Source: Candidatus Aquiluna sp. UB-MaderosW2red
GTDB lineage: Bacteria; Actinomycetota; Actinomycetes; Actinomycetales; Microbacteriaceae
Assembly (NCBI RefSeq): GCF_900100865.1
Contig: NZ_LT627734.1
Location: 620,001-684,000 of the forward strand
Reading direction: 5' to 3'
DNA length: 64,000 bases
The position numbers and the translations under genes are program-made. The notes below the pieces were generated by a model, which was given only the letters and a program-made list of their open reading frames with translations, was not told where the DNA came from and made no database searches. Of the stretch, positions 37,221-62,483 are shown piece by piece; the first letter of the stretch is position 1, and each line of letters starts with the position of its first letter.

Positions 37221-38651
37221 ATGAGCGACACTCAGGGGCTAGCTAATCAGTGGATCAGATCACTGTTGGCCGATTGGCAGTTGATTGCGGATGTGGCATT
37301 TGCTGATTTAGTTTTATGGCAATTTGATCAGGGCAAATTTATTGCCACAAACCATGCCAGGCCCGCTGCTGCACCAACCGTTTTCCACCGCGATCTCACA
37401 GACCAAAATCCCAGAAGCGACTGGCTGGAGATCATCGAACTCTCTTATCAAACCGGGGAGTCGGTTAATCCAAGCAGCATTAGCGAGATTGACGGCCTGA
37501 AAACCCGAGTTTCGGCCTTTCCTGTTTATGCGGGAGGTAAAAAGGATGGGGATCTGCCGATAGCGGTCATTTCCCGCCACCTTAACCTCACCGAGGGCCG
37601 GATGCCCAGCAAGGTGCAACTCAACTTCCAAGCCGTTGGCAATGAGATCTTGGAGATGGTAGCGCAGGGGCTATTTCCTACCCCCGAGGTTGGTTCAGGC
37701 TCAAAGCGCGGCGCTCCTAGGCCGAACGACGGACTACTCCGATTGGATGAGTCCGGCAATGTTGTTTTTGCCTCACCCAACGCCCTGTCACTTTTTTATC
37801 GAGCCGGAGTGAAAGTCGAGCTGGAGGGAAAACAGTTTTCTAAGGCAGTGACCGGTGCGCAATTGGATTTTGGGCCAATGGATGAAGGTCTGCCGCTGGT
37901 ATTAACCGGCAAGGGCGCTTGGCGAACCGACCTTGAATTTAAGAATATGACTTTGGCGGTTCGGTCCATCCCGACAATCGAGCGCGGCAAACGAGTCGGC
38001 GCCACAATTTTATGCCGCGATGTCACCGAACTGAGATTTCGAGAGCGCGAGCTCATCACCAAGGATATGACGATTAGGGAGATTCACCATCGAGTGAAGA
38101 ACAACCTGCAAACCGTGGCATCTTTGCTCAGAATTCAGTCACGGCAGTCCAAATCTGAAGAGGTCAAAGAATCATTGGCCCAGGCGATGCGTCGAGTCAG
38201 TGCTATTGCAGTCGTGCACGATGTGCTCTCCGAAGGAATAGATCAAGAAGTTTCGTTCGACCTAATCTTCAAAAGAATTTTGGCTCTAGTTCCCGATATC
38301 ACGGCCGCATATCACAACAGCGTGAAAACAGAGTTGGTGGGAAGCTTTGGAGAGCTTTCAGCTCAACGTTCCACCACGCTGGCCCTAGTTCTAACCGAGG
38401 TTGTGGCAAATGCTGTGGAGCACGGGCTGGCAGGAAATTCCGGACTCATTCAGGTTGAAGCGGCCCGAGATAAACAGTTTCTCACAATTGCAATTACCGA
38501 TGATGGTGTCGGTCTAGCTGAGGGCAAAGTGGGTACTGGGCTTGGGACGCAGATTATTCGTACGCTCGTTGAATCCGAGCTTCGCGGCAGTATTAGTTGG
38601 ACCTCACCGATTCGCGGCGGGACTAAGGTCGCAATCAAGCTCCCTATTTAG
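37221..38651 (+). CDS. pdtaS: PdtaS-type soluble sensor histidine kinase
   Basis: A 476-residue kinase without membrane helices. N-terminal GAF-like domain (10-150), PAS domain (about 170-275) and a HisKA_2/HATPase pair: I-H-H-R-V-K-N-N-L-Q-T-V holds the phospho-acceptor, E-V-V-A-N-A-V-E-H-G is the N box and DDGVGL the G1 box. This is the architecture of mycobacterial PdtaS (Rv3220c), which phosphorylates an ANTAR regulator; that regulator gene is not in the window. Mycobacterial pdtaS also sits near whiB1, as here. Confidence 0.92.
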   Translation: MSDTQGLANQWIRSLLADWQLIADVAFADLVLWQFDQGKFIATNHARPAAAPTVFHRDLTDQNPRSDWLEIIELSYQTGESVNPSSISEIDGLKTRVSAFPVYAGGKKDGDLPIAVISRHLNLTEGRMPSKVQLNFQAVGNEILEMVAQGLFPTPEVGSGSKRGAPRPNDGLLRLDESGNVVFASPNALSLFYRAGVKVELEGKQFSKAVTGAQLDFGPMDEGLPLVLTGKGAWRTDLEFKNMTLAVRSIPTIERGKRVGATILCRDVTELRFRERELITKDMTIREIHHRVKNNLQTVASLLRIQSRQSKSEEVKESLAQAMRRVSAIAVVHDVLSEGIDQEVSFDLIFKRILALVPDITAAYHNSVKTELVGSFGELSAQRSTTLALVLTEVVANAVEHGLAGNSGLIQVEAARDKQFLTIAITDDGVGLAEGKVGTGLGTQIIRTLVESELRGSISWTSPIRGGTKVAIKLPI

Positions 38652-38679: not shown

Positions 38680-38934
38680 TCAGCCAGCGCGTCGAGCTCT
38701 GGCATAGCGACGCTTCAGCGAGCGGCGCTCATCCTCAGAGAGGCCACCCCAAACTCCGGTGTCCTGATTCTCCTTGATCGCATACTCGAGGCAGCTTGCG
38801 GAGACATTACATTGACGGCAAATTGTTTTTGCCTGCTCGATTTGCTCAAGGGCCGGTCCCGTGTTCCCGACTGGGAAGAAGAGTTCCGGGTCCTCATTGA
38901 GGCATCGGGCCTGATTTAGCCACGTCATATCCAT
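38680..38934 (-). CDS. whiB1: WhiB family regulator, WhiB1 type
   Basis: An 84-residue Wbl protein: M-D-M-T-W-L-N-Q-A-R-C-L start, cluster cysteines in ARC ... TICRQCNVSASC, then TGVWGGLSEDERRSLKRR and a basic tail. WhiB1 is an essential iron-sulfur, NO-responsive sigma-A partner in mycobacteria. ATG 38934 is chosen; the longer frame to 39057 adds a non-conserved stretch. It is convergent with pdtaS, 28 bases apart. Confidence 0.93.
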   Translation of the reverse strand: MDMTWLNQARCLNEDPELFFPVGNTGPALEQIEQAKTICRQCNVSASCLEYAIKENQDTGVWGGLSEDERRSLKRRYARARRAG

Positions 38935-39041
38935 AGTGTTTCGGTTCCTAAGATCGACATTGCTCCTACTTTTTAGCAGGTAGAGTCGCATGTGCAACCC
39001 CAAAATGCTTTCACAGCCGAGGAAAGAAATCAAGACCCAAA

Positions 39042-39437
39042 ATGCAAAAGCAGCCAAAAAAACTCATAATCGCGGTGATTATCATTGCCCTGGAGGCATT
39101 AATTCTTTGGGGGCTCGGTGTTTGGTCTCTTGTTGCACTTTTTTTAGAAGATACCGCTTCTTTTGTCAGCGCATTGTTTTTGCTCGGCATGGTTTTGGCG
39201 GCGGCGCTTTGGGCGAGCAACATTGCAATTGGGGTCTGGCAGCATAAGCGCTGGGCATATTCGCCAGCATTGATTCTCCAGCTCATCACAGCGGCGATTG
39301 CAACTGCCAGTTTTGGCGGCGAATTTGGAATTGTTTGGCTGGGTCTTGGATTATTGGTCCCGGCGGCAACTGCGTTTTACTGCGTGTTTTCCAAAGAGGT
39401 GAGGGAGCTACTGCGCCCCACCGAGACGCTTGAGTAG
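39042..39437 (+). CDS. Small membrane protein
   Basis: A 131-residue protein with four predicted membrane helices (about 9-30, 36-60, 74-95, 99-120), basic N-terminus and acidic tail. Its 3' end overlaps the convergent peroxiredoxin gene by 30 bases. Not assigned to a family. Confidence 0.7.
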   Translation: MQKQPKKLIIAVIIIALEALILWGLGVWSLVALFLEDTASFVSALFLLGMVLAAALWASNIAIGVWQHKRWAYSPALILQLITAAIATASFGGEFGIVWLGLGLLVPAATAFYCVFSKEVRELLRPTETLE

Positions 39438-39890
39438 CATGTTGGCGTGGCCAGTAGCTTTCACGTTATAAAGGGACTGCAAGACTTTCCCAGCCTTATC
39501 CAAAATGATGGTTGATCGAAGCGGACCGCGATAGACACGGCCGTATATGCTCTTTTCGCCGAAGGCTCCGTATAAATGGTGGACAACCATGTCGGGGTCG
39601 CTCAAGAGGTCAAAGGCTAGATCGTGAGATTCCTCAAAGCTCTTTAGCTTCGCCACGCTATCCGGAGATATTCCAACGATAGTGAACCCTAAGGCTTCAA
39701 ATTTTCCCAACGAATCTTGAAAGTCGACGGCCTCTTTGGAGCAACCAGGGCTTCCGGCCGCGGGGTAAAAGAACGCAACCAGCCCCTGGCCGGAGAAACT
39801 AGAGAGCGATCTGATTTCGCCATTTTGATTTGCGAGTGAAAAATCAGGGGCCGCATCTCCAGTAGCAACTCGCACAACTTCTTGATTCAC
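39408..39890 (-). CDS. bcp: Peroxiredoxin, BCP/PrxQ type, single cysteine
   Basis: A 160-residue thioredoxin-fold peroxidase with A-P-D-F-S-L-A-N-Q-N-G near the N-terminus and the peroxidatic loop F-F-Y-P-A-A-G-S-P-G-C-S-K-E-A (Cys50). The usual T-P-G-C-T is S-P-G-C-S, and no other cysteine exists in the protein, so it must use an external thiol (1-Cys type). Confidence 0.88.
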   Translation of the reverse strand: MNQEVVRVATGDAAPDFSLANQNGEIRSLSSFSGQGLVAFFYPAAGSPGCSKEAVDFQDSLGKFEALGFTIVGISPDSVAKLKSFEESHDLAFDLLSDPDMVVHHLYGAFGEKSIYGRVYRGPLRSTIILDKAGKVLQSLYNVKATGHANMLLKRLGGAQ

Positions 39891-40019: not shown

Positions 40020-40095
40020 GCACCTCTAGCTCAATCGGCAGAGCAACTGACTCTTAATCAGTGGGTTCCGAGTTCAAGTCTCGGGGGGTGCACCA
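40020..40095 (+). tRNA. tRNA-Lys (CTT)
   Basis: Cloverleaf: acceptor GCACCTC pairs with GGGGTGC (one G-T), D arm AGCTCAATCGGCAGAGC, anticodon arm ACTGA-CTCTTAA-TCAGT with anticodon CTT, T arm CCGAG-TTCAAGT-CTCGG, discriminator A at 40092 and a coded CCA at 40093-40095. Mature body is 73 bases. It lies at the edge of the accessory stretch that runs to 43.4 kb. Confidence 0.96.
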
Positions 40096-40135: not shown

Positions 40136-40909
40136 CTAGATGTTCAGGGTTCCAATGACGATGACCCAGGCTAGAACCGACTTGGACACCAAGCTCAAAA
40201 TAATGTAGCCCTTCTCACCAAACTCATAGAGCTTCCACTTACCAACCTTCTTGTATTGCAGCCACATGTTGATGGCGAAGGTGTTGAAGAATAAGAAGGT
40301 CAGCAAAAAGCCAAATTGAGCGTAGGTCGGTATCGAATCCGATATGTTGTTGGTCGAGACCCAGAAATAGATTCCACCCATAATCCAAGGCACGATTCCC
40401 GCAACAACGCCTAGGTTAAAGGGCAACCAGCTGGTCTTCTCGGTCAACTGGTTGTGGCGCTCCATGACGAGACCAAACATGTTCATCAAGAAGTTCAAGG
40501 TAAATACAAATACCACTGCGGAAATCTCAATTAGGCCACCAAGCATCAACAGCACGACCAGCATCAAGGAAGATGATATCGAGTACTCCCACCAGCGCGG
40601 TGGGTTGATGCCCTTAGCAATATTTTGCTCGTAGCGGCGGATGTAAAAAGGCGATGAAATCAATAGGTGGGCGATTGCCGATAGCAATAGAAATATTGGG
40701 CCGATTAGCGCTATTGGGAATTCAAAGAGTGTCTCACTCACGGGGCGAATGCCCTCGGGGGTATCGGTGAAGAACCGAGAGATAACCGGGATCCTCGTTT
40801 CATCGTTCAAGATGAAAAATAGCGCAACAGCCTGGACTAGGTGAAAAACACCAGCCAATCTGTTAAGTATTTGCAACTTGCTTCCAAGTTTTGTCTCAGG
40901 CTTCATCAT
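40136..40909 (-). CDS. Heliorhodopsin
   Basis: A 257-residue seven-helix retinal protein of the heliorhodopsin family, inverted in the membrane relative to type 1 rhodopsins (N-terminus inside, from family knowledge). The family pattern is clear: early LQILNRLAGVFHLVQAVALF, helix 3 start PRWWEYSISSSLMLVVLL with the Glu that serves as Schiff-base counterion, LPFNLGVVAGIVPWIMGG, a helix-6 block F-L-F-F-N-T-F-A-I-N-M-W-L-Q-Y-K, and last-helix YIILSLVSKSVLAWVIV where Lys243 is the retinal lysine. Heliorhodopsins do not pump ions well; signalling or enzyme-regulating roles have been proposed. ATG start, GGGAGAA upstream. Its 3' end faces tRNA-Lys; no retinal synthesis gene is in the window. Confidence 0.96.
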   Translation of the reverse strand: MMKPETKLGSKLQILNRLAGVFHLVQAVALFFILNDETRIPVISRFFTDTPEGIRPVSETLFEFPIALIGPIFLLLSAIAHLLISSPFYIRRYEQNIAKGINPPRWWEYSISSSLMLVVLLMLGGLIEISAVVFVFTLNFLMNMFGLVMERHNQLTEKTSWLPFNLGVVAGIVPWIMGGIYFWVSTNNISDSIPTYAQFGFLLTFLFFNTFAINMWLQYKKVGKWKLYEFGEKGYIILSLVSKSVLAWVIVIGTLNI

Positions 40910-41476
40910 TTCTCCCAGCTGATTTAGTTAGCCCACATCCCCGGGCTTCTAAAAAGTATAAACGCGTCAAAAACTTCGAGCCTAGTTTCCGATCTAGGAG
41001 AGCCTGACAGTTTGGTGAGAGTGTTTATTGGGAAATTACCAGAATTGAAACTTGATCCTGGCCCAAGGCCCTTGGCTCTAATCATTTGGTGCAAACAAGG
41101 ACTGAAGTCCACATTCAAGACTCATCAAAAAAGTGCTGCCCCAAAGAGGCAAGAGACCAAGCGATGCCGTCCTTGTCGGCACACTCCAACTCGGCGGCCC
41201 CCAAGTTCAAATATTCCCGGTTATTCTTGCCCCGGTTTGAATCCCCAGTATCACCACCTGAAGATCTCTAGTTCATCAAAGCCCCCACGACTTAGATGAC
41301 GCTTTGTTGTGTCTTGAAAGCGGGAATCGGGAAAAACCCAGGATTGGCGAACGGTCTTGCAGAAAAGCAAAAAATTAGTATCGGCTTGCTCTGCCAGTGT
41401 TTGGCTGTGCGCAAGGTTATTGCTCAGTCACCTGGGCGAATTGTTTTTCTAGAATCCCACGAGTTGGAATATTGCG
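40910..41476. other. Gene-poor interval upstream of the heliorhodopsin gene
   Basis: No confident gene. Near the heliorhodopsin start a TATACT about 50 bases upstream on the minus strand could be a -10. Further up, a minus-strand frame between stops at about 41120-41255 reads R-E-Y-L-N-L-G-A-A-E-L-E-C-A-D-K-D-G-I-A, then W-S-L-A-S-L-G-Q-H-F-F. It looks protein-like but lacks a start, and may be a gene fragment. Overlapping plus-strand frames have the biased composition of antisense reads. Confidence 0.5.
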
Positions 41477-41770
41477 TCAGGTCAAACTAACGAAATCAAG
41501 TTCCTTGCCACAGTGCACACAGAAGGTGGCCTCATCTTTAATCAATTCCGAGCAATACACGCATTTTCGAGTTAGTTCTGGACTTACTGGTCGCATCACT
41601 TGAATCACGAATAGCGGGATTAGCCAGCCAAGTAGAAGTGATACGACTAGAAATCCCGCGAAACTTCTTCGCCTCTCCTGAGCCACTCGAGCAACAAAAT
41701 AAGCCGGAATCACCCAAATCAAAATAAATACGATGGCTATTCCAGCCCACTCCGACCCGTCTAAACCCAT
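41477..41770 (-). CDS. Small membrane protein with C-terminal zinc ribbon
   Basis: A 97-residue protein: two membrane helices (GIAIVFILIWVIPAYFVA; FAGFLVVSLLLGWLIPLFVI) and a zinc ribbon at the end, C-V-Y-C and C-V-H-C separated by ten residues. ATG 41770 opens just before the first helix. A similar zinc-ribbon membrane protein, with the ribbon at the N-terminus, is at 47982-48260. Function unknown. Confidence 0.75.
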   Translation of the reverse strand: MGLDGSEWAGIAIVFILIWVIPAYFVARVAQERRRSFAGFLVVSLLLGWLIPLFVIQVMRPVSPELTRKCVYCSELIKDEATFCVHCGKELDFVSLT

Positions 41771-42031
41771 AACTGCTCCTGCTCTAGAACCCATTTTAAC
41801 TTACCACCTGACATCAGCATTTCCTCTTAAGTAGTTGGTGGAGATGGCCTATACCCGGGTAGGCCTGGGACTCAAAGGCGCTCGGCTACAGACTGCAACT
41901 TCTTTTGCCGAGCTGACTCAAAAGTATTTAGGCGGCCTGAATCAGGGCCGCTCAGGCTCACGCTTTTTTCCAATTCGGCACTCTAGCTGGGTGAGATCGA
42001 AGGAAAGAATTGAATAGAGGCGAATTACCTG

Positions 42032-42895
42032 TTGACCAAGCTGCCCACATTTCTCATCGAATCAATAAAAGACGGACTCAGAAGAACGAGGTATTTTGGG
42101 CAGCTTCGAGCTCCCACGAACCTCACCCAGGCCAAGGCAGATCTGCAAAAAGATCTTCATCTAATCGAAAGAGCCTTGGCACTTCCTGAACCGAGAAGGC
42201 CTTTTGGACTTAAACCTGTGGCGCGTATCAACGAACTTATCGCCCAATATTGCCCTGAACTCGGCAATTATCTCTTGAATCAAGCTGAGCATATTCTGGC
42301 CGAGGATATGAATTGGAATGAGCAGGGCATTCGGCCAGCTTTTCCCGAAATTCGAGAGCCAAGCGAAGCTCAGCATCTTTTGGTTTCCCGGCACTCAGTG
42401 AGGGCGTTTGGTTCTGATTTGGCCCCCACAGATCAAGAACTAGAGGGGATTATGCAGCTCGCGGTGTACGGCCCGAGTGTTTCTAACACCCAAAGTTGGA
42501 GCGTTTGAGCCTATCGCGCAGAAACTGACATTGAAAAGCTTTTATCTTTGCAAAACGGGAACGCTGGTAACTCTAAAATTCCACTTCTGCTTCTTATTAC
42601 CGTCGACTGCAGGAGCTTTGCGGGTCCTAGGGAGCGCAATCAGATGTGGATTGATGGTGGGATTTTCCTGCAGCAACTACTGCTGTCAATTCATGCATCA
42701 GGCTGGGCGAGTTGCCCAATGAATTTGTCTGAGATAAATGCCCAAGCCAGCAGGCTTCGAAAACTCGCACACATAGCCGATTACGAGGAAATCATCTGCT
42801 TTGTCTCGGTTGGCGAACAAGATCCTGCAATCTCACCGGCTCGTTCGGCAAGAAAGCCGGTGACCGAAGTGCTGCATATTGAACAACTTGGCTGA
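42032..42895 (+). pseudogene. Nitroreductase family gene interrupted by one in-frame TGA
   Basis: One frame of 288 codons runs from TTG 42032 to the TGA/TAG region at 42895 and is broken only by TGA at 42506-42508. Before it stand the nitroreductase features S-R-H-S-V-R-A-F and Y-G-P-S-V-S-N-T-Q-S-W (FMN phosphate and isoalloxazine contacts). After it the same frame carries A-Y-R-A-E-T-D-I-E-K, then K-I-P-L-L-L-L-I-T-V-D and NQMWIDGGIFLQQLLLSI, the usual second half. No frameshift is needed. This is a nonsense-mutated FMN oxidoreductase, a recent pseudogene, unless the base is a sequencing error or the halves are made separately. Selenocysteine is unlikely because the position is not a known catalytic site. 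Confidence 0.85.
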
Positions 42896-43350
42896 GCCAC
42901 GAACCTAGAACTTGCCACACATGCCAACTAATTGCGCAAAGGGGACATGGAAATGCTTGAATCGGCAGCGATGAGCATTGCGGCAACTATTTGGGTTGGC
43001 TCCTGGTGTCTGGGGTAGGTAGCCTTAGCAACGCCGCCGTGACCCTTGCCAAGATAGCTGCTGGCACCATCGCTGCAATCCGCATTTGGAGCAAATCGAC
43101 TGCCGCGAGCGAGCCGTCCAAAGTAAAGGGTCTGTCGAATCTTTCCTCCCGGGGAGTCCCAACGGTTCATTCAGCTGGTTGCGCTTTCGGTCCGGGAATC
43201 AGAGGCTTGGAAACTAAGAAATCGACGCCAATAGGGTCTCGGCAATTGGTGCGCACCTACTTGCCCGAAAGTTCGGGTCTTGACCATTAAAAAGCCGGCT
43301 AAGACTTTTGGTTTCTAATTTTGGAATAATCTCCAAAATAAATACAAATA
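42896..43350. other. Decayed interval, possible broken minus-strand gene
   Basis: No intact gene. On the minus strand one frame from about 43286 to 42970 reads like real protein (R-T-N-C-R-D-P-I-G-V-D-F-L-V-S-K-P-L; D-G-S-L-A-A-V-D-L-L-Q-M-R-I-A-A) but is cut by TAG at 43257-43259 and TGA at 43167-43169. The plus-strand 99-codon frame over it is Ser/Lys-rich as antisense reads are. I cannot name the ancestral family. Confidence 0.5.
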
Positions 43351-43387
43351 TTGATTGAATCCGGCAGATAGTTAGGTTAGCCTAACC
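43351..43387 (+). promoter_or_regulatory. Promoter of efeU-like gene with DtxR/IdeR-like iron box
   Basis: -35 TTGATT (43351-43356), 16-base spacer, -10 TAGGTT (43373-43378). Over the -10 lies GGTTAG-C-CTAACC (43375-43387), a perfect 6+6 inverted repeat that matches the core of the DtxR/IdeR consensus. Iron-loaded repressor bound here would cover the -10. Consensus from established knowledge; the regulator gene is not in the window. Confidence 0.8.
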
Positions 43388-43414
43388 ATCTAAGAAACAA
43401 TCAAGGACGACTAA

Positions 43415-61881: not shown

Positions 61882-62400
61882 CTAGGCCGCTGAGTTAGCT
61901 TCCTGGAGAGGCTTAGCCACCGTCGGGGCGGTATTTTGCTTGATAGCACCCAACCCCGAGGCAATCACCAGAGCCGAACCAATGATGATTAGGTTCTTGA
62001 TGATGTATTGACCCTCGAGGGTCAGTCCGAAGGGGAATACCTCGAAGCAAATCTCCGGGAGCAAAACAAGCGGTAAGAAGGTACCTGGCATCTGGAAGGC
62101 CAAAAGCACTATCCCAATTCTGGTGAGGGCTGGGATTAGAAAAGCGACACCAATAGCAACTTCCCAAAGTCCCAAAAGCGGAACGATGATTTCTGGAGTG
62201 AGCCAATAAACCGTGGCCGCAACTAGATCATAAGCGGGGGAAAGGTGCCCAATCATCTTCAGGGCCCCGAACCAAATGAAGGTAATTCCAATTGCGAACC
62301 TTAGAAAAGGCACACCAATCTTGGCTGAGAATTCGATAACCATGTTGTCAAATTTGCTGACTAGTTTCGCCAGCGGTGCGGGGATCATTTTGAGTTCCAA
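61882..62400 (-). CDS. DoxX/DUF417-like membrane protein
   Basis: A 172-residue protein with four membrane helices and the opening P-F-L-R-F-A-I-G-I-T-F-I-W-F-G-A-L-K, typical of DUF417/DoxX-like proteins. A later W-E-V-A-I-G-V-A-F-L matches the same fold. Function unknown; some family members relate to redox stress. Confidence 0.82.
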   Translation of the reverse strand: MELKMIPAPLAKLVSKFDNMVIEFSAKIGVPFLRFAIGITFIWFGALKMIGHLSPAYDLVAATVYWLTPEIIVPLLGLWEVAIGVAFLIPALTRIGIVLLAFQMPGTFLPLVLLPEICFEVFPFGLTLEGQYIIKNLIIIGSALVIASGLGAIKQNTAPTVAKPLQEANSAA

Positions 62401-62483
62401 ATCTTCTAACAGGACTTTTTGCCCATGTCAGAGCAAAGCTTCACAGGTGCTTTTTTATTCCTGAGAGGCCCATTAAGAGGGTT

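Follow-up and report, generated by a model that had tools for sequence, protein, structure and literature searches.

Second heliorhodopsins (HeRs) in the genus Aquiluna have been reported to be mostly distant from the first (12 of 13 cases), and of 12 Aquiluna genomes carrying a rhodopsin set of three (two HeRs and one actinorhodopsin, AcR), 11 come from saltwater, with blh present in 22% of Aquiluna and the synteny of carotenoid genes shown with rhodopsin annotations in Fig. 6E of the same paper (PMC12422013, ISME Commun 2025). Work on HeR colour has placed 13 measured proteins at 530-556 nm, where swapping both residues at the sites of Gln213 and Ala240 of the HeR 48C12 shifts the absorption maximum by 12 nm each way, Gln/Ala being the redder and Met/Ser the bluer combination (PMC7807009). 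Here, we describe HeR2, a HeR gene in a 64,000-nucleotide stretch of Candidatus Aquiluna sp. UB-MaderosW2red ("the window", C1:620001-684000 of a one-contig genome of 1,663,804 bases). A distant second HeR in saltwater members of the same genus is already on record in PMC12422013 and would correspond to HeR2, and as to its family the gene is ordinary; what is new here is that neither of the colour-tuning sites known from the literature has the same residue in HeR2 and in the other HeR of its genome, HeR1 (C1:1571667-1572404, 309.9 bits, 39% identity to HeR2), which predicts a two-colour pair. The gene itself is as follows (window positions):

40136..40909, minus strand: HeR2, a complete heliorhodopsin of 257 residues, or 256 from the conserved start at 40906

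Judged by its sequence, the membership of HeR2 in the heliorhodopsins, as put forward in the original prediction, is practically certain: both family profiles match end to end and far over their cut-offs (PF18761 with 287.5 bits against 26.7, profile positions 1-242 of 242; NF038020 with 315.5 bits against 100, positions 1-244 of 244), and six of 18 matches in a search of PDB sequences (E up to 10) are HeRs, with E between 1e-59 and 5e-37, the remaining matches being weak (best E 0.005). The coordinates of that prediction hold, the strand, on which it was silent, being the minus strand. The landmark blocks R-W-W-E-Y-S-I-S-S-S and S-K-S-V-L-A-W named in it are present, and SLVSK is the helix 7 SxxxK motif with the retinal lysine, a motif found in 36 of the 36 HeR2 rows of the tree described below. 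The lysine is Lys243, as predicted, when counted from 40909, but Lys242 from the second Met one codon later, which is conserved in all 11 aligned orthologues. The Glu of transmembrane helix 3 (TM3) is Glu108, and the residues aligned to the counterion Glu107 and to His23 and His80 of 48C12 are E, H and H. Published heliorhodopsin work names Glu107 as a proton-transfer site, and an E-S-L motif in TM3 is given for heliorhodopsins in PMC9601134. Read by eye at E, E+4 and E+11, this motif is E-S-V in HeR2, E-S-L in 48C12 and E-S-I in TaHeR, and since TaHeR is a HeR of solved structure, the third letter does not seem to be family-defining. By these residues HeR2 would bind retinal, and by homology it should have the inverted topology, with its N-terminus inside. 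The gene is under strong purifying selection, with ratios of nonsynonymous to synonymous substitution (dN/dS) of 0.064-0.076 in three close ortholog pairs and of 0.035-0.070 in six of ten pairs of the window HeR2 with its orthologues, where dS is high (1.2-3.1) and the other four pairs are saturated.

In a 99-row tree, HeR2 belongs to a 36-row clade with a support of 100 in the Shimodaira-Hasegawa-like approximate likelihood ratio test (SH-aLRT), and HeR1 groups with 48C12 in an 18-row clade, also at 100. One side of the HeR2 clade holds Microbacteriaceae, Nanopelagicales and other actinobacterial metagenome-assembled genomes (MAGs; 30 rows, SH-aLRT 94), and the other holds six Saccharibacteria/Patescibacteria (SH-aLRT 86) with 63-70% identity to HeR2. 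Among the best 80 of 138 relatives, identity falls with a gap from 63% for the last member of the HeR2 group to 46% for the HeR that comes next. The nearest named HeR2 is that of an Aquiluna MAG (91%), and the isolate IMCC13023, which also has HeR1, carries one at 84%; such named relatives put the genome in Aquiluna, in the Luna-1 subcluster of the Microbacteriaceae. Some record titles in the clade (e.g., Streptomyces griseus) are likely to be wrong names for MAGs. We note that the tree is of a quick type, with SH-aLRT as its only support measure and with long branches flagged, and that it does not fix the sister group of HeR2. Its two separate clades, together with the 39% identity, rule out HeR2 as a recent duplicate of HeR1. 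The spread of HeR2 sequences over two phyla fits horizontal transfer, for which neither direction nor root is fixed by the tree, and the clade seems to have moved between lineages. Carriage by viruses was also considered; viral contigs were scanned once, using two peptide patterns, and no relative of HeR2 turned up.

Within the genus, HeR2 is present in nine of 22 genomes (78-91% identity) and HeR1 in 20, with neither HeR in G013 and G157 (G and L numbers denote genomes and loci); across the family, PF18761 matches in 80 of 398 genomes, 77 of them over the cut-off. As a separate observation, divergent heliorhodopsin homologues occur in the Microbacteriaceae (loci L044-L049 and L051, in G314, G317, G084, G139, G342, G283 and G150) that have no TM7 retinal lysine (e.g., LSVVQAS, LSLASTS) and no equivalents of His23/His80, while R-x-x-E in TM3 is kept; this holds for all seven that could be aligned among eight examined, and three of these genomes (G314, G084 and G139) have a canonical HeR as well. 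Lysine-less type-1 proteins are treated in one published paper.

At the colour sites, positions 213 and 240 of 48C12, the window HeR2 has Met/Ser, and HeR1 in the same genome has Gln/Ala. The genus repeats this division, with Met/Ser in seven and Met/Ala in two of nine HeR2 proteins and Gln/Ala in 19 of 20 HeR1 proteins, the last being truncated and unreadable at these sites. In the tree set, HeR2 has Met/Ser in 27 and Met/Ala in nine of 36 rows (the Saccharibacteria/Patescibacteria members have Met/Ala in five of six), HeR1 has Gln/Ala in 17 of 17, and the 44 rows outside both have Met/Ala in 43 cases and Met/Ser in one, so that a second-site Ser is almost exclusive to HeR2. Mapped on the tree, the second-site Ser requires at least six changes, and the Met/Gln difference a single change, which marks HeR1 and 48C12. 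HeR2 of the window falls by its residues (Met with Ala or Ser) into the predicted blue type, under about 540 nm, which is a grouping drawn from PMC7807009 and not a formal family. We judge it moderately probable that HeR2 and HeR1 are a spectrally split pair of which HeR2 is the bluer member, a prediction from two residues and the mutants of one paper.

The original prediction had found no retinal-synthesis gene, photolyase or pump rhodopsin in the window, and this is correct for the families searched, all of which were placed outside it, but the isolation that it implied is not borne out, these genes being present elsewhere in the genome. A Blh-family gene lies at C1:266530, a type-1 rhodopsin (TM3 motif, by eye, D-T-E) at C1:476507, and photolyase-domain matches at C1:1200787 (263 bits) and, weaker, at C1:368208 (40 bits); carotenoid-type genes near C1:1.476-1.480 Mb comprise a phytoene synthase (PF00494), a flavin amine-oxidoreductase (PF01593), UbiA (PF01040) and a lycopene cyclase (PF18916). 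Looking beyond the window, as that prediction proposed, returned the Blh-family gene, the type-1 rhodopsin, the cyclase and the second HeR. HeR1 is followed on the same strand by the katG of this genome, 3.5 kb downstream as measured between open reading frames (ORFs) and with two genes between:

L057, 3978-6137 and 9644-10447 (= G000 C1:1.566-1.572 Mb): katG/HeR1 region

In our proposed reading, which we would back and doubt in equal measure, HeR2 functions as a retinal-binding heliorhodopsin from a second clade with a history of movement between lineages, and the genome retains it alongside HeR1 as a bluer light sensor of photo-oxidative stress. Retinal, whether a product of Blh in the cell or acquired by uptake, would bind Lys243, green or blue-green light would start a slow heliorhodopsin photocycle, and the changed protein would act on partner proteins without pumping ions, such that photo-oxidative stress defences (peroxiredoxin, catalase-peroxidase, carotenoids) might be adjusted. 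Retinal binding, the actual colours, the sensor role, the partner and the stress output are the parts of this proposal that we infer; in our judgement HeR2 is quite probably a sensor rather than a transporter, and a photo-oxidative stress response as its output is somewhat doubtful.

The stress output is suggested by the neighbours of HeR2, as a redox- or porphyrin-type gene lies within 251 bp of it in 14 of 36 loci, and in the other 22 no such gene was recognised among neighbours that were only partly scanned. The genes concerned are:

Window, L140, L141: peroxiredoxin near HeR2
L135, L136: catalase-peroxidase, divergent to HeR2
L139: glutaredoxin, 2 bp upstream of HeR2
L148, L151 (Saccharibacteria, with like gene order): SOUL heme-binding protein, 56 bp upstream of HeR2
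L164 (Saccharibacteria): TspO, 56 bp upstream of HeR2 (PF03073, 96 bits)
L152, L155, L158, L159, L161: DoxX/MauE-like membrane proteins near HeR2, three of which scanned under Pfam cut-offs and two of which are joined to L155 by homology

For HeRs in general, PMC8612252 reports that glutaredoxin, catalase and COG4270 adjoin HeRs and that redox genes are enriched, and its main text contains neither TspO, SOUL nor DoxX; our literature search found no paper combining heliorhodopsin with TspO or with "SOUL heme-binding". HeR transcript levels in Aurantimicrobium photophilum are reported to track carotenoid genes, with an increase in darkness (PMC8591293). KatG is present in seven of 22 genus genomes and lies beside or near HeR2 in three (G207, G408 and G322). 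A SOUL gene lies within 5 kb of a HeR in six of 79 loci (L148, L151, L152, L161, L197 and L209), and 19 of 33 genomes tested, a set chosen to include the six, have roughly one copy of the gene each; as L148 and L151 share gene order, there are perhaps three to four independent cases, for a family that was picked post hoc. In the genome of L166, a Saccharibacterium (G436), SOUL and TspO genes are adjacent at C3:53611-54589, with HeR2 seemingly about 20 kb away on the same contig, if C3 is the contig of L166. A DoxX-like protein is also found in the window itself, at 61885-62427, 21 kb from HeR2, and is homologous to one in the relatives' HeR2 island.

One further neighbour, F26, is a membrane protein of 267-311 residues that stands tail-to-tail with HeR2 in five of nine Aquiluna loci. 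Two of its homologues match the TspO profile PF03073 below the cut-off (23.3 and 20.6 bits against 24), and hhalign with a 24-row alignment gives a probability of 12.8 and E 0.002; neither Pfam nor NCBIfam returned a TspO match in direct scans, and its structure model (predicted local distance difference test, pLDDT, 88.5) had no PDB match at E 0.001 and no TspO among the best 50 rows. A role for F26 as a general HeR partner is not supported, as it is present in 188 of 398 family genomes, and by eye the placements listed bring it close to a HeR in just two settings, the HeR2 island and G162 (at about 3 kb). An apparent catalase at L132 13654-15825 was also ruled out, being a P-type ATPase.

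Several observations weigh against the proposed sensor of photo-oxidative stress. The tally of 14 loci is post hoc, mixes families, counts orthologous loci repeatedly, includes DoxX/MauE matches under the cut-off and has no matched control. No partner is conserved across the HeR2 clade, the neighbours vary by lineage, and in L145 the gene 38 bp upstream of HeR2 encodes a glucose/sorbosone dehydrogenase, which PMC8612252 ties to HeRs and to sugar metabolism. KatG occurs without HeR2 in three of its seven carrier genomes (G375, G095 and G013), and the peroxiredoxin and histidine kinase of the locus are likewise found where HeR2 is absent. As to the protein, a strict TM3 pattern holds in just 28 of 36 HeR2 rows; Met at the first colour site is found in all 44 rows outside HeR1 and HeR2, hence HeR1 is the unusual one, and HeRs with Met/Ala already absorb below 540 nm in PMC7807009.

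The locus itself consists of the following features (window positions):

37221..38651, plus strand: PdtaS-type histidine kinase, belonging to the conserved left block and found even where HeR2 is absent
38680..39057, minus strand: WhiB-type regulator, member of the conserved left block
39408..39890, minus strand: AhpC/TSA-family peroxiredoxin with a single Cys, the conserved left flank of tRNA-Lys in the genus
40020..40095, plus strand: tRNA-Lys(ctt), convergent with HeR2 with 40 bp between their ends, a conserved landmark of an insertion hotspot
40910..43414, no strand: decayed interval, probably at the point from which the right block typical of the genus was severed
41477..41794, minus strand: small membrane protein whose zinc ribbon scores below threshold
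42032..42895, plus strand: nitroreductase-family pseudogene, whose ORFs 42032-42508 and 42548-42895 match the two ends of PF00881
43415..44269, plus strand: EfeU/FTR1 iron permease, in one of 22 genus genomes (that of the window only)

The tRNA-Lys that the original prediction placed beside HeR2 is confirmed as tRNA-Lys(ctt), 40 bp from the HeR2 stop, and several of its other descriptions need qualification. Its "1-Cys peroxiredoxin" is mechanistically fair, the protein passing PF00578 with Cys50 as its sole Cys, but by family the nearest models are thiol-peroxidase and PrxQ, both under their curated cut-offs (126.6 bits against 140 and 116.6 against 260). Its zinc-ribbon membrane protein scores marginally under the Pfam cut-off (25.4 bits against 27), and its "decaying interval" shows decay for one gene, the nitroreductase, with HeR2 itself being conserved by selection. 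Comparison with relatives, which it had also called for, reveals that the placement at tRNA-Lys is a conserved arrangement of the genus, but that the right-hand neighbours in the window are untypical.

Gene order in the genus runs from a left block, whose last genes are WhiB, one for a small membrane protein and the peroxiredoxin, through tRNA-Lys(ctt) and a variable stretch to a right block, which in many relatives consists of a 2-hydroxyacid dehydrogenase, LysE and a second peroxiredoxin, followed, by eye, by another LysE-like gene and an aminotransferase-type gene, after which come carotenoid genes. HeR2 lies inside the variable stretch in all nine genus loci, directly at the tRNA in four, after F26 in two, and after F26 and more genes in three, one of which was read from a tRNA fragment with its left block on another contig. 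In all eight HeR2-bearing relatives, HeR2 and the LysE/peroxiredoxin-2 block are on the same contig; phytoene synthase and desaturase genes fall inside the fetched stretch in three of these eight (L115, L116 and L120) and UbiA alone in two more. G013, a one-contig genome without HeR2, has the left and right blocks adjacent. The window genome has its right block at C1:1.475-1.485 Mb, in reversed order and about 0.82 Mb from HeR2, and a large inversion with one end just past HeR2 would explain both the displaced block and the decayed interval.

Repetition of the 3' part of a tRNA is the usual trace of insertion at that tRNA, and the 3' part of tRNA-Lys is repeated in three of the nine HeR2 loci and in one locus without HeR2. 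These repeats mark insertions between the tRNA and HeR2, which thus stands outside those elements; no integrase was found among eight genes scanned in or beside the island, and no upstream block is conserved in all nine HeR2 loci. Beyond Aquiluna, a tRNA lies within 1 kb of HeR2 in four of 27 loci against 16 of 261 other genes there (p = 0.10, not significant), and other HeRs have a tRNA within 1 kb in four of 44. In L040 6940-7611 (= locus L173), two near-identical tRNA-Thr(cgt) genes precede the HeR2 of another genus, which begins some 55 bp beyond the second of them, again suggestive of a tRNA as the insertion site. In L038 3968-5005 (G207 = IMCC13023), an ORF between the tRNA and HeR2 has a ubiquitin domain (PF00240, 99.6 bits), unusual for a bacterium, which could be real, a eukaryotic insert or contamination.

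Other readings of HeR2 were also weighed. The protein could regulate a quite different output, an enzyme or transporter nearby or elsewhere, through direct light-driven protein contact, the redox neighbours then being an effect of the hotspot. The change of neighbours between lineages favours this, as do single loci in which HeR2 adjoins the dehydrogenase noted above (L145), a CNNM protein (L151) or a Na/H exchanger (L149), and published regulator roles of other HeRs concern glutamine synthetase and photolyase, and in a further report an ABC transporter, with binding described for the synthetase and for the transporter. Redox-type genes nevertheless recur in separate lineages, in line with the report of PMC8612252 on other HeRs, and we regard this alternative as a serious, if unlikely, possibility. 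That HeR2 instead rides on a mobile element at tRNA-Lys and serves no lasting purpose for the host seems improbable: it would suit the patchy presence in nine of 22 genomes, the spread over two phyla and the tRNA-derived repeats at three loci, but strong purifying selection has acted over a deep divergence, and HeR2 lies outside the repeat-marked insertions with no integrase among the eight island and flank genes scanned.

A weak light-driven proton transporter like V2HeR3 of giant viruses has a precedent in the viral heliorhodopsin reported to transport protons in PMC9448325. The evidence against it is indirect: the compared pocket residues of HeR2 agree with those of 48C12 and TaHeR (V2HeR3 being outside the comparison), the genome already carries the type-1 rhodopsin with D-T-E, and the one viral-contig scan found no relative. 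We rate this reading very improbable. Finally, EfeU and an ABC transporter come after the decayed interval in the window, which would invite a link of HeR2 to iron uptake, but with EfeU in one and HeR2 in nine of 22 genus genomes, and a neighbourhood best explained by rearrangement, we reject this link as scarcely credible.

Heliorhodopsin function is largely open, and a small genome whose two HeRs differ in clade and carry opposite residues at the colour sites, sites established by mutation in another HeR pair, offers an internal comparison, of added interest in that it also has a retinal-synthesis gene. Taking the sensor reading further, Aquiluna may have a two-colour pair in which HeR1, of the 48C12 type, absorbs near 550 nm and HeR2, gained by horizontal transfer, near 530-540 nm, and whose signal ratio would report water colour (or depth, or salinity-linked colour) and set photo-oxidative defences, with HeR2 exchanged between actinobacteria and Saccharibacteria; this is a tentative extension that we think unlikely to hold in full. 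The known hosts of Saccharibacteria include actinobacteria, and the HeR2 clade ties Saccharibacteria to free-living actinobacteria through one gene. Genome editing exists for the freshwater relatives Rhodoluna lacicola and Aurantimicrobium photophilum (PMC11577799).

Compared with described systems, 48C12 (6su3) and HeR1 resemble HeR2 in family and in the positions of the lysine, histidines and glutamate, but belong to another clade and have Gln/Ala rather than Met/Ser at the colour sites. TaHeR (Thermoplasmatales archaeon SG8-52-1, 6is6) is the closest solved structure, at 226.5 bits with the HeR2 profile, and shares Met at the first colour site, but it has Ala at the second and falls outside the HeR2 clade. 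Many HeRs of the candidate phyla radiation (CPR) appear to form new clades according to PMC9166423, in the available portions of which we met no link of Saccharibacteria/CPR HeRs to those of Aquiluna or Nanopelagicales; in our tree, six such HeRs stand inside the HeR2 clade. Relative to the second HeRs of PMC12422013, the colour prediction, the clade shared with Saccharibacteria and the tRNA-Lys locus are what the present analysis adds to the content of that paper available to us.
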